Shown: piece by piece, positions 710-6,009 of the stretch
Numbering within the stretch: the stretch's first letter is position 1
Layout of the letters: each line of letters opens with the position of its first letter
NCBI GenBank assembly: GCA_020061125.1
Contig: JAGUYV010000209.1
Location: 1-9,714 of the forward strand
Reading direction: 5' to 3'
Length of the DNA: 9,714 nt
Source: a bacterium
GTDB lineage: Bacteria > UBP15 > UBA6099 > DSWB01
The notes under the pieces: generated by a model
What the model was told of the DNA's origin: nothing
The model's database searches: none
The model's input: the letters and a program-made list of their open reading frames with translations, nothing else
Made by a program: the position numbers and the translations under genes

Positions 710-2293
710 TCAGCGCTTCCAATGCGGCTCGACTTCAAGACAGCCGTTGGCCGAAGATGTGAAAAGCCTGTCGTGTGATGCGCTGTAAAAAATATGCCGC
801 ACCTTGCGGCCGACGAAAACCCGGTCTTTAATTTTGCGAGTGCGCGGATCTATGACGAAAACATTGCCTGAAAGATATCCGGCCGCATACAGGAGATTGC
901 GCCGGGGGTCGAACGCGAGGTCGCGTACACCAGGCTCCAACCCGATACGCCCGGAGTATTTCCTGGCACGGGTGTCGAACGCATACACGGCGCCGTGCAT
1001 GGGCATGCCCGCGAACATGGTGTGCGAACGCACATCCACAGCCAGGCCGTTGCCCACGCCCATGCCCATGAGAAAATTGAATGCGCCGATTTTGATCCCG
1101 CGAGACTGTAGATCCGGCCTGGGCGCGGCGAACACACTGCCCGTGGGCGCTCCGTTTACAGAGTACAGGATTTCCGATCCGCGATCATAGAGCGTCATTC
1201 CGTGAGTCATGGGGAATTCGCCGTTCTGGAGAACCGAGCGCACGGATCTGTTTCTCCAGTTGTATACCCAGATGCGGGGCTGCAGGCGGTTGATGCGGCC
1301 CTGTCTCTTGTGCTCCGCGGCCTGCCGCGCCACCACATCCGGCACAATGGTATGTTCCGCGATCTGCCCCTCAATCACTCCCCACGATGTATCGTGGTGT
1401 GCCTCGTTGGTGGTGGGCGTAAGCAGCACCTCGCCGCGCTTCAAATCCATGCCAAAGAAAAGCGGGGTATAGTGAACGAGGCGGATTTCGCGGGAAATCA
1501 CATCCCTGGCATCGTCAATTTCCAGAAGGCCGCGCTTCATGGGCGAGGCCACGAAGCAAACGCCTTCGCCGGGCGCGCACTCGCCGCGGAACGCGGAATA
1601 GAGATAGTACACCTTTTGAATTTTTTTGGATTCCAAATCAACTTTGATAAGCGGCAGGGGCGTTTCCAGGTCCTGATACGCCAGACCACAGTAAAGGGAC
1701 CGCCCGTCCGAGGACGGGAAAACCGTCCTGGGATCCTGTGAGATCTCGCGCAGCGGCGGCGCACCATGCGGCTCGGCCTTGACGATGCGCTTTCGCCAGT
1801 CCGTATCACATAGAGAAAAAATGGGAGTGATGCGCGAGTCCCGCATCATGCGCGCGCACTGGTCGCCCTCAAACGAATACTGGCGGATGATGCTCAACGC
1901 AACCAGCACAGGGAATGCAAGCACGGCGGCGATGAGCGCTTTTTTTTGAAGTAGCCCCCTGCCGCCGCGCGCCGTGCTGCGCCAGTGCCATAGCGCGAGC
2001 GCAATGAATGAAATTACTATCAGCCACTTGTACTGCAGCCACAAGGATGCCAGGAATGGCCGCACGGGGATCAACGCCATGGCCAGCACACAATAGGCGG
2101 CGGCGCGCGCCCAGGCTCTGGTCCGCAATCTCCGCCACAAGACAACCACCGCAAAAACAGCAAGGCTCACGGCGATCATGGCGAGGATGCCAGAGGTCAC
2201 AAAGTGAACAAAGAACGCGGGTTTGCCGCCGTACACATCCGTGGCTGCAAGCGCGGTCTGCAAGAATGGAGTCGTGGACAGAGAAGAAGTCAT
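710..2293 (-). CDS. Membrane-anchored YVTN/beta-propeller repeat protein
   Basis: This is a 527-residue protein with no family name that I recognise over its full length. The N-terminal 140 residues hold about four hydrophobic segments (roughly 27-52, 64-84, 88-104 and 118-136). The remainder is soluble and beta-rich. Near the C-terminus three units of about 42 residues are visible, aligned at RSHTMFAG (422), RRNLLYAAG (464) and SHDRLFTSS (506). Each resembles the YVTN/NHL propeller blade, with a pattern like GNVFVIDPRTRKI. Such propellers usually act as extracytoplasmic binding or scaffold domains. Cysteines at 146, 162, 202, 239 and 246 could form disulfides if exported. It is the last gene of the operon, after the cupin. 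The ATG at 2293 lacks a clear ribosome site. A GTG at 2329 adds 12 residues and overlaps the cupin stop as GTGA, so a coupled start there is a real alternative. Function unknown. Confidence 0.75.
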   Translation of the reverse strand: MTSSLSTTPFLQTALAATDVYGGKPAFFVHFVTSGILAMIAVSLAVFAVVVLWRRLRTRAWARAAAYCVLAMALIPVRPFLASLWLQYKWLIVISFIALALWHWRSTARGGRGLLQKKALIAAVLAFPVLVALSIIRQYSFEGDQCARMMRDSRITPIFSLCDTDWRKRIVKAEPHGAPPLREISQDPRTVFPSSDGRSLYCGLAYQDLETPLPLIKVDLESKKIQKVYYLYSAFRGECAPGEGVCFVASPMKRGLLEIDDARDVISREIRLVHYTPLFFGMDLKRGEVLLTPTTNEAHHDTSWGVIEGQIAEHTIVPDVVARQAAEHKRQGRINRLQPRIWVYNWRNRSVRSVLQNGEFPMTHGMTLYDRGSEILYSVNGAPTGSVFAAPRPDLQSRGIKIGAFNFLMGMGVGNGLAVDVRSHTMFAGMPMHGAVYAFDTRARKYSGRIGLEPGVRDLAFDPRRNLLYAAGYLSGNVFVIDPRTRKIKDRVFVGRKVRHIFYSASHDRLFTSSANGCLEVEPHWKR

Positions 2294-2325
2294 ATTAATT
2301 GTGTGGTGATGGGCATGCGCGATTT

Positions 2326-2724
2326 TCACACCACCGCGCAAGGCTCCCAATCCGGATTCGCGGGGTCGAAGCGCAGATCGCTGAAACACAGGGCGAACAG
2401 GGTCTTGTCTCCGATGTTCTTGAACCCGTGAGCCACGCCGGGGCTGATCTTGTACAGGAACAAGTCCCCCGGCTGCACAACGCATTCCGCGGATTCGCCG
2501 GTTTTCGGGTTGTGGGCGGCCATGCGGCACGGGCCGCCCATGATGAACACGAATTCGGTCTGCCGCCTGTGAATATGGTTGCCGCGCACAACACCCGGTT
2601 CCAGGCTCACGATATGCACATTGTCAAGCGCATGCTTTTCCAGAAGTTCATATGGAATGGGATGCGTGTTCCACCCGCGCGCATCGCGGTATGCGTCCAG
2701 CTCTATAGTTTCAAACCCCTGCAT
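2326..2724 (-). CDS. Cupin-domain protein, sugar isomerase/epimerase-like
   Basis: This 132-residue single-domain cupin matches the first cupin motif exactly: G44-x5-H50-x-H52-x4-E57-x6-G64. The second motif is P95-G96-V-A-H99-x3-N103. H50, H52, E57 and H99 would bind the metal. The sequence around RGNHIHRRQTEF and the PGVAHGFKNIGD stretch resemble small cupins of sugar-nucleotide and polysaccharide pathways (WxcM/FdtA-like ketoisomerases, capsule proteins). I infer a sugar-related enzyme or binding protein; the exact reaction cannot be assigned. It has no signal peptide or membrane segment, so it should be cytoplasmic. It starts 13 bases after the GH172-like gene stops, and its TGA overlaps a possible GTG start of the propeller gene, so all three are very likely cotranscribed. 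A generic cupin binding protein is the main alternative. Confidence 0.8.
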   Translation of the reverse strand: MQGFETIELDAYRDARGWNTHPIPYELLEKHALDNVHIVSLEPGVVRGNHIHRRQTEFVFIMGGPCRMAAHNPKTGESAECVVQPGDLFLYKISPGVAHGFKNIGDKTLFALCFSDLRFDPANPDWEPCAVV

Positions 2725-3871: not shown

Positions 3872-5947
3872 TTATTGAACCTGCACGGAAGCGCGGGAAA
3901 GCTCGGTGGCCGGGAAGGGCGGAGCGTCCGGCCCGTACACCCAGGCGTTGATGCGCTGGTTGTAACGGCGGTACATGCACCGCGCGGTGATGGTCACGGG
4001 TTTCCGGACATCGCCGGGCAGGGGAATGCGGTAAGAAAAATCGAGCTTGCCGCCGGGCGGAATAATGGCCTTGTCGCGCACGCCGCGCGCGTCCCAGAAC
4101 CGGTGTTTTTCCACGGGATTGCCGGCTGCGTCCACGGGCACGCCCCCCAGCAGGGTGCAGCCGTCCGGCGTCTGGCCCGGCCCTTGGGGCGGGCAGTTTC
4201 TGAACAGCGTTTCGCCGCGCGCGTCCCTGGCCGTGACTTCCACCCAAGACTCCATGAGGTCGAGCGGGCTTGCCGGGAAATTGTGCACGAGCGTCATATT
4301 CTCGAGGGTAACTCTGGCCTTGACGCTTCGGCCCGCGGGGGCGGCGCTCACGGACACGCGCACCGTGCCCGGCTTGTCCAGGAATTTCCGGTAAGCGTCG
4401 TATTTGTTGTGCAGGGACAGGCGCAGGTACCAGACTTCGAAGCGCGGCACGGGCAGCTTGCCCTGGAGCCACAGCTCCGTACCCCTGTCGAAATCCGCGA
4501 TATCCTCCGCGGGCGCAAAGCCCGCAGGGGCCAGGCGCGCCATGGCCTGGTTGATGCCCCAGAATCGGTGGTCGGGGCGCGCGTGAATGGGCGAGGAATG
4601 CGTGGTCAGCGGCATGTGGCAGTCCGTGCATGAAAGACCGGCCTGTTTTTCGAGCAGTTTCCACGGCGTGTATGTGTCGCCCAGGATCAGCTTGTGTCCG
4701 TCCGTGAAGCGATGGGGCATGTTCACGCGGTGGCAGGAGCCGCACCACTGTCCGCGCGGGATGGCGGAGCGGTAATAGTCGCGGCGGTGGCGCGTGAGGT
4801 CCCAAATGGTGAAGCGCCAGGCCGTGTCCCTGTCGTGAGGCCGTTTGTCAACCAGAGGGGGCGGGTGGCCCGGCATGAGCCTTCCGCGCGCGTTGCCGTT
4901 GCCCGCCTCGGGATCCGTGTGCGCGATGGCGTGGCAGAACTGGCATGAAACGCCCTCGGCGCGAAGGCGGTCCGCAAGGGGATCTCCGGGCCGGTCCACG
5001 ATTCCGTATATCGAAGCCAGGGGATTGTGGCAGTTGGTGCAGAAGGTTGTGGCTTCCCACCCGAACCGCTCCGCGAATTCTTCGAGGATTTTCCGGTATG
5101 GCGGGGTCATGGCGGCCATGCTGTGCGAGGACGCGCGCCACTGCTCGTAGATGTCCGGGTGGCAGCGCGGGTCTCCGCATGATTCGGAATCCTGGACGAA
5201 CGGCTCCGGGTCGCGGATGGGTTGACGAAGGCGCGCGTCGGATTTGATGACGAAGTCATAGCCCTTGCGGAGTTCCTCGGCCGGATATTTCAGGCGCCTG
5301 TTTTCCTTGTAAGTGTTGATTGCGCCCGCAGCCAGAGGCAGACCAGCGAGAGCGATGAAAGCTGCGGCGAAAAGGGTCTTCATGCGCGCGGGGTCTGTTA
5401 GTCCCCGGTTGCGCCGCACCGCGCGCATGGCAAAAGGCAGCCAGAGCAGATACGCCACGGTTCCGGCTATGTGCGCCCAGTAGAAAAAATTGCTGCGCAG
5501 TGTTTGCGCGTAAGCCAGGCCGAAGGCCATGGGGCCTGCAATGTATATGCCCGTGCCCGCGAGAACCGTGAAAATCAGGGAGGGCGTCCAGAATTTTCTA
5601 TGCGCGCGCGCTGTGAGCGCGGCCCATGCGATCAGGCTCAAAGCGAACACGGGTTTAAACGGGATCTCGGCGCGGGGCAGGGCGATCATGAGGAGCAGGG
5701 GCAGGGGCCAGAGCAGGGGACGCCGCCCGCCCGCTTCGCGCAAGTATGCGTGCAGGCTCATGCCCGCGAACACGATGTCAAGAAAACCGATGACAACATG
5801 CCATTGAAGAAGGTAATAGCGCGCGAAATCGCGCGTCTCCCGCACGAACAGCAACGCGCCGGTCGCCAGGCAGAACCCGGACGCGGCAACGAAGCCCGCG
5901 AAATACCAGGTGTTGGGGAAGTTCCATTTGTGATCGGAATCCGTCAT
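3872..5947 (-). CDS. Membrane-anchored pentaheme cytochrome c (seven-TM domain fused to cytochrome c554-like domain)
   Basis: This 691-residue protein has three parts. Residues 1-211 contain about seven hydrophobic helices (roughly 14-35, 44-66, 78-90, 97-113, 122-145, 153-175 and 190-210). Histidines H50, H66 and H159 lie in or at the ends of these, and could bind heme b or act at a quinone site. Residues 250-460 carry five heme-c motifs: CGDPRCH (257-263, a CX4CH type), CTNCH (303), CQFCH (335), CGSCH (402) and CTDCH (440). The run HPDIYEQWRASSHS after the first motif is typical of cytochrome c554-like multihemes. Residues 500-690 form a beta-rich domain with HNFPASPLDLMESWVEV, seen after hemes in other multiheme cytochromes. 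An odd number of helices places the hemes in the periplasm. It probably passes electrons between the membrane pool and a periplasmic partner; direction and partner are unknown. No maturation or reductase gene is adjacent. Confidence 0.85.
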   Translation of the reverse strand: MTDSDHKWNFPNTWYFAGFVAASGFCLATGALLFVRETRDFARYYLLQWHVVIGFLDIVFAGMSLHAYLREAGGRRPLLWPLPLLLMIALPRAEIPFKPVFALSLIAWAALTARAHRKFWTPSLIFTVLAGTGIYIAGPMAFGLAYAQTLRSNFFYWAHIAGTVAYLLWLPFAMRAVRRNRGLTDPARMKTLFAAAFIALAGLPLAAGAINTYKENRRLKYPAEELRKGYDFVIKSDARLRQPIRDPEPFVQDSESCGDPRCHPDIYEQWRASSHSMAAMTPPYRKILEEFAERFGWEATTFCTNCHNPLASIYGIVDRPGDPLADRLRAEGVSCQFCHAIAHTDPEAGNGNARGRLMPGHPPPLVDKRPHDRDTAWRFTIWDLTRHRRDYYRSAIPRGQWCGSCHRVNMPHRFTDGHKLILGDTYTPWKLLEKQAGLSCTDCHMPLTTHSSPIHARPDHRFWGINQAMARLAPAGFAPAEDIADFDRGTELWLQGKLPVPRFEVWYLRLSLHNKYDAYRKFLDKPGTVRVSVSAAPAGRSVKARVTLENMTLVHNFPASPLDLMESWVEVTARDARGETLFRNCPPQGPGQTPDGCTLLGGVPVDAAGNPVEKHRFWDARGVRDKAIIPPGGKLDFSYRIPLPGDVRKPVTITARCMYRRYNQRINAWVYGPDAPPFPATELSRASVQVQ

Positions 5948-5950
5948 GTC

Positions 5951-5975
5951 TCACCGCGGGGCTGCGCCCCGGTGA
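5951..5975 (-). promoter_or_regulatory. Leader hairpin over the ribosome binding site of the cytochrome gene
   Basis: On the minus strand the arm TCACCGGGGC (5966-5975) pairs with GCCCC and GGTGA (5951-5962, split by a 2-base bulge) around a 3-base loop. The 3' arm includes GGTGA, the only ribosome-binding-like sequence before the ATG at 5947. The predicted transcription start lies near 5974, so the mRNA would begin almost at the foot of this hairpin. That suggests translation control by masking of the ribosome site. It has no U-tract, so it is not a convincing terminator. Confidence 0.45.
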
Positions 5976-5979
5976 TCAC

Positions 5980-6009
5980 ATGATAGATACAATCGGGCCG
6001 GACTGTCAA
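5980..6009 (-). promoter_or_regulatory. Sigma70-type promoter of the cytochrome gene
   Basis: On the minus strand a perfect -35 TTGACA (6004-6009) is followed after 18 bases by TATCAT (5980-5985), a 5/6 match to the -10 consensus. It lies in the 78-base gap between the alcohol dehydrogenase stop and the cytochrome ATG, so the cytochrome is likely its own transcription unit. Confidence 0.6.

Follow-up and report, generated by a model that had tools for sequence, protein, structure and literature searches.

The joining of a b-type membrane domain and a periplasmic multiheme cytochrome c in a single chain is known from CbcL of Geobacter sulfurreducens, an inner-membrane quinone oxidoreductase that oxidises quinol and comprises six helices, two hemes b, nine hemes c and much disorder (PMC9129911). 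A second point of reference is the PHC family of pentaheme cytochromes, which is related to the archaeal nanowire AvECN; one heme of the PHC family is pentacoordinate, and hemes I, III, IV and V align with the four hemes of AvECN (PMC11976967). Proteins of this family, such as ExtKL, Gsu2801 and cytochrome c552 of T. tepidum (PDB 5ze8), are soluble and secreted.

The gene analysed here lies on the minus strand at 3872..5947 of a stretch of 9,714 nucleotides (the window), and all features of the gene described below are on that strand. Its open reading frame, uninterrupted by stops, encodes 691 residues followed by the stop codon. Like CbcL, the protein combines a b-type membrane domain, putative in this case, with a periplasmic multiheme cytochrome c in one chain. 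Unlike CbcL, with its six helices, two hemes b and nine hemes c, it has seven predicted helices, one histidine pair and five PHC-type hemes c followed by an Ig-like domain. Most likely the protein works like CbcL, yet by its heme numbers it is not a CbcL, and its cytochrome module belongs to another family. With the PHC proteins it shares the five hemes, the conserved distal histidines and the Ig-like C-terminal domain, within which one of the distal histidines is located; it differs from them in that its N-terminus is a polytopic membrane domain where they have a signal peptide, and in that the first heme motif is of the CX4CH type. The quinol dehydrogenases NapC, NirT, CymA and NrfH do the job proposed for this protein, passing electrons from quinol to periplasmic heme c, but these have one helix and hemes c only, whereas the membrane domain considered here is polytopic; no NapC match was obtained for the protein, and its seven helices do not agree with the single N-terminal helix that characterizes NapC/NirT. 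No description of a family with this exact domain order was found in the literature covered, which included few of the subscription journals.

The membrane domain occupies residues 13-216 (5300..5911), as judged from an AF2 model of residues 1-226 (mean pLDDT 75) and from alignment. The original prediction had counted about seven hydrophobic helices, and the model contains seven long helices, at residues 13-35, 41-71, 81-89, 97-115, 117-141, 153-180 and 186-220, of which helices 3 and 4 (81-115) form an insert that is absent from most relatives in the alignment. The membrane histidines to which attention had been drawn, H50, H66 and H159, are all present at these positions, and two of the three are conserved. 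H50 in helix 2 (5798..5800) and H159 in helix 6, which corresponds to the fourth core helix (5471..5473), are the sole invariant membrane histidines among 31 aligned fused proteins (31/31 each), and their invariance was found again in a separate MAFFT alignment (18/18) and in an alignment of 19 sequences. H66 is not conserved across the 31 proteins and was rejected as a heme ligand. The membrane helices are otherwise very divergent (13-23 percent identity). H50 and H159 thus provide the invariant histidines, paired on two membrane helices, that are expected of a bis-His membrane cytochrome b. Because these two residues are invariant in 31 proteins from several phyla, the protein is best read as a multiheme cytochrome c to which a membrane redox domain is fused, and the domain very probably holds an electron-carrying heme, putatively heme b. 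Basic residues (K/R) are richer in the alternate loops 2, 4 and 6, so that a topology with the N-terminus inside is favoured. With this topology, H50 and H159 lie close to where their helices begin to run inward from the periplasm, and both are predicted to be near the periplasmic helix ends, adjoining the cytochrome.

A second histidine pair, at TM2 +18 and TM4 +14 counted from the invariant histidines, is situated near the predicted cytoplasmic face. Both of its members are present in 12 of the 31 fused proteins, both are absent from 13, and six proteins are mixed (Fisher p about 0.001, ignoring kinship). This is the behaviour that would be expected for ligands of a second, inner heme; the domain is therefore probably mono- or di-heme b, the family having forms of both kinds. 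The window protein has neither histidine of the second pair and probably carries one heme b rather than two. Both histidines occur in its nearest relatives (L063, L005, L060 and L061), so that loss of the pair in the lineage of the window protein is the simpler reading.

Like the di-heme b subunits, namely hydrogenase cytochrome b (HyaC) and cytochrome b561/DUF4405, the membrane domain is a helical bundle with histidine ligands, which are putative here. Unlike those proteins, the window family has its invariant and its optional ligands on the same two helices, and no significant sequence match links the two groups. Curated cytochrome b families gave no significant match to the membrane domain, and the di-heme relatives gave sub-threshold matches to the heme-b Pfam families DUF4405, Ni_hydr_CYTB and Ferric_reduct. 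The profile of the domain matched nothing significantly among PDB sequences, and it had no match in one Geobacteraceae genome, for which the presence of CbcL is not established. Nor did the domain turn out to be a known non-redox transporter devoid of conserved histidines: a search of known transporter families returned no significant match, and one weak match was taken as chance. In structural comparisons, Foldseek found no match to the membrane model under E 0.001. VIA-align matched the domain model to the cytochrome b561 Dcytb (Z 10.5) and to the hydrogenase cytochrome b 4gd3 (Z 8.7), with designed bundles and rhodopsins at similar Z values; 4gd3 was also the top structural match of the full-length AF2 model (Z 9.3), a poor model (pLDDT 49) that is unfit for placing hemes. 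The fold comparison with heme-b proteins is therefore suggestive, not decisive.

The five heme-c motifs that had been predicted were recovered by motif reading. The first, CGDPRCH (residues 257-263, 5159..5179), is of the CX4CH type and not CXXCH, and it is followed by CTNCH (residues 303-307, 5027..5041), CQFCH (residues 335-339, 4931..4945), CGSCH (residues 402-406, 4730..4744) and CTDCH (residues 440-444, 4616..4630). The motifs have the spacing of the PHC family together with homology to c552, as a profile search matched 5ze8 with E 1.9e-9. The window protein also matched Pfam Cytochrome_C554 above the cut-off of that family, and the ExtKL model matched 13 of 18 members. Both the cytochrome part and the beta part fall within the known pentaheme family that includes PHC, ExtKL and T. 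tepidum c552.

Outside the heme motifs, four putative distal ligands for the five hemes are conserved in fused and soluble members alike. H275 (5123..5125) is found in 29/29 fused and 10/12 soluble proteins, and H460 (4568..4570) in 29/29 and 12/12; H387 (4787..4789) is present in 29/29 fused proteins, and 11/12 soluble proteins have a histidine one column off. The fourth, H555, belongs to the HNFPASPLDLMESWVEV signature (4235..4285) and is invariant (29/29 fused, 12/12 soluble). Because H555 is the opening residue of this beta signature, the signature probably forms a loop that supplies a heme ligand; in T. tepidum c552, the sequence HAMPTG occupies the same position. Four conserved distal histidines for five hemes fit the pentacoordinate heme reported for the PHC family, and heme 2 is the candidate for the five-coordinate heme, because it is hemes I, III, IV and V that align with AvECN. 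The original prediction had described the beta-rich region carrying the signature as separate. Both region and signature are there, at residues about 500-691 (3875..4450, from secondary structure and structural alignment to 5ze8), but an independent domain was rejected: residues 493-691 align to the C-terminal part of 5ze8 (modest Z of 6.4, 127 residues, rmsd 4.5), and this match and the conserved histidine identify the region as the Ig-like part of the PHC family. The fused protein, having a polytopic membrane domain in place of the signal peptide of a soluble secreted protein, is a membrane-fused branch related to the PHC family and is not an ExtKL.

The whole domain order, common to the 31 aligned proteins, recurs in Acidobacteriota, Poribacteria, Calditrichota, Fidelibacterota and Bacteroidota, including Saprospiraceae, in a scan of named genomes; this recurrence and the above-cut-off match to Cytochrome_C554 indicate that the architecture is not due to chance. 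Profile searches located fused members in 19 of 386 sampled genomes, distributed over many families, and the genome of the window contains a second copy with the same layout (L002, contig C159). Among genomes of the same order, soluble relatives only were seen. When the membrane-domain profile alone was searched against the 386 genomes, 14 of the 15 places matched were pentaheme fusions; the stand-alone match, in G020 (E 3e-5), is a polytopic transporter-like ORF without heme motifs and was taken as chance. In a tree of 50 cytochrome regions, a branch with support 100/98 has all 31 fused proteins on the same side, although the exact place of the window protein and L002, which have long branches, is less sure. 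A single soluble member, L066, is nested among the fused clade and has probably lost its membrane domain secondarily. In this protein (L066, 1396-3561), a lipoprotein-like signal replaces the membrane domain. The family is thus widespread, and it has no Pfam or NCBIfam model of its own.

Some members show further peculiarities. A first heme motif with the unusual spacing CX5CH occurs in two different genomes, in L002 and in the gene at 11795-13615 of L088. At 9733-13615 of L088, a single genome carries two distinct fused pentaheme cytochromes with a head-to-tail overlap, and their counterparts in the genome of the window are on separate contigs. The genome of the window also encodes a lipoprotein-like hexaheme relative with an extra N-terminal heme motif (L003, contig C41), located between genes for thioredoxin-domain (YyaL-like) and rubrerythrin-like proteins, neighbours that were named by eye only.

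The original prediction had noted that the window offers no associated reductase, oxidase or cytochrome maturation gene. The other genes of the window encode an iron alcohol dehydrogenase, an SCP2-like protein, a DUF2961 protein, a cupin, a TM-propeller protein, a TauE-like permease and a thioesterase, and none in the 9,714 nucleotides is a dedicated redox partner of the fused cytochrome. The genome outside the window yields four matches to PF01578 (cytochrome c assembly), so heme attachment should be no problem for the host, and two matches to COX1 (terminal oxidase subunit I). The TM-propeller gene (710-2530, minus strand) encodes membrane helices followed by a YVTN-like beta-propeller, and similar genes are found near the fused cytochromes at both loci of genome G294 (L088, 13615-15294; L089, 4776-5999). 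It was rejected as a partner, since the family is multi-copy in these genomes, with many copies in the genome of the window and in its order. Upstream of the fused gene is a promoter-like site, TTGACA-18-TATCAT (5980..6009), which agrees with the consensus at 11 of 12 positions; this is a consensus match only, in a region that holds three such sites against 0.9 expected. A stable leader hairpin (5951-5975, minus strand) is predicted over the ribosome site and the start codon of the cytochrome gene (z -2.9).

Among relatives, the fused gene repeatedly has FG-GAP/UnbV_ASPIC (CRTAC1-like) genes next to it or nearby (L030, L034, L036, L038, L044, L086 and L087), or one gene further on (L032), and the genomes G035, G213 and G045 hold 7 to 21 UnbV_ASPIC genes each. 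No UnbV_ASPIC gene was detected in the genome of the window or in G294 by a search in which positive genomes served as the control. The link is therefore lineage-bound, and it was set aside as a functional clue for the window protein.

It is fairly likely that the membrane-anchored pentaheme cytochrome is a single-chain quinol:cytochrome c oxidoreductase. Quinol would bind to the membrane domain on its periplasmic side and be oxidised there, and the electron would pass to the putative heme b, which H50 and H159 would coordinate close to the periplasmic face. From there it would presumably run along the bis-His hemes c in the periplasmic module, and finally to a partner in the envelope or to a substrate at the heme that seems to have no distal ligand and may be an open site. 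The proposal that one polypeptide unites membrane redox chemistry with periplasmic electron transfer is supported in the present case by the invariant histidine pair; as a principle, it was already known from CbcL (PMC9129911). A bolder version, which we regard as rather doubtful, is that of a one-polypeptide quinol-dependent periplasmic reductase, with heme b on the periplasmic side only, four hemes that act as a wire and a catalytic heme c that is five-coordinate, which arose when di-heme-b ancestors lost the inner heme site.

The sequence itself does not settle which way the electrons run, and the pentaheme module might instead take them from a periplasmic or extracellular donor and deliver them through heme b to quinone. 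T. tepidum c552, the relative with a solved structure, has been suggested to act in sulfur metabolism (PMC11976967), and the terminal oxidases of the genome could use the resulting quinol. Such reverse flow is nevertheless unlikely, given that CbcL, the characterised single-chain analogue, oxidises quinol (PMC9129911) and that no donor enzyme is encoded nearby. The heme seemingly without a distal histidine would also suit a sensor of redox state or of gas, or an assembly platform, with no respiratory role, in which binding of a ligand at the open heme is relayed by the membrane domain together with the TPR-like part of relatives; many relatives do have long TPR-like C-terminal extensions and stand beside FG-GAP/UnbV_ASPIC genes. 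However, the window protein lacks the extension and has no such neighbour, no UnbV_ASPIC gene was detected in its genome and no signalling output domain is present, all of which make this role improbable. Still less is to be said for a membrane domain that is a mere anchor with structural histidines. The lack of a significant match to curated cytochrome b families would agree with an anchor, but exactly two invariant histidines in such divergent helices, and a second pair that covaries, are hard to explain in that way, and the soluble relative L066 uses a lipoprotein-like signal instead; an anchor is thus highly improbable.

Periplasmic and extracellular respiration begins with links from quinol to cytochrome c, of which most that are known come from a few model genera. 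The window protein belongs to an unnamed, widespread family in which a probable b-type membrane domain is joined to a pentaheme module related to a nanowire, and which is likely to carry electrons from quinols in the membrane to the cell envelope. For annotators the family provides a recognisable signature, and its one-heme and two-heme forms are a natural series in which biochemists can test the role of the second heme b. If the periplasmic reductase reading were true, an enzyme that moves charge would have become electroneutral when the inner heme was lost.
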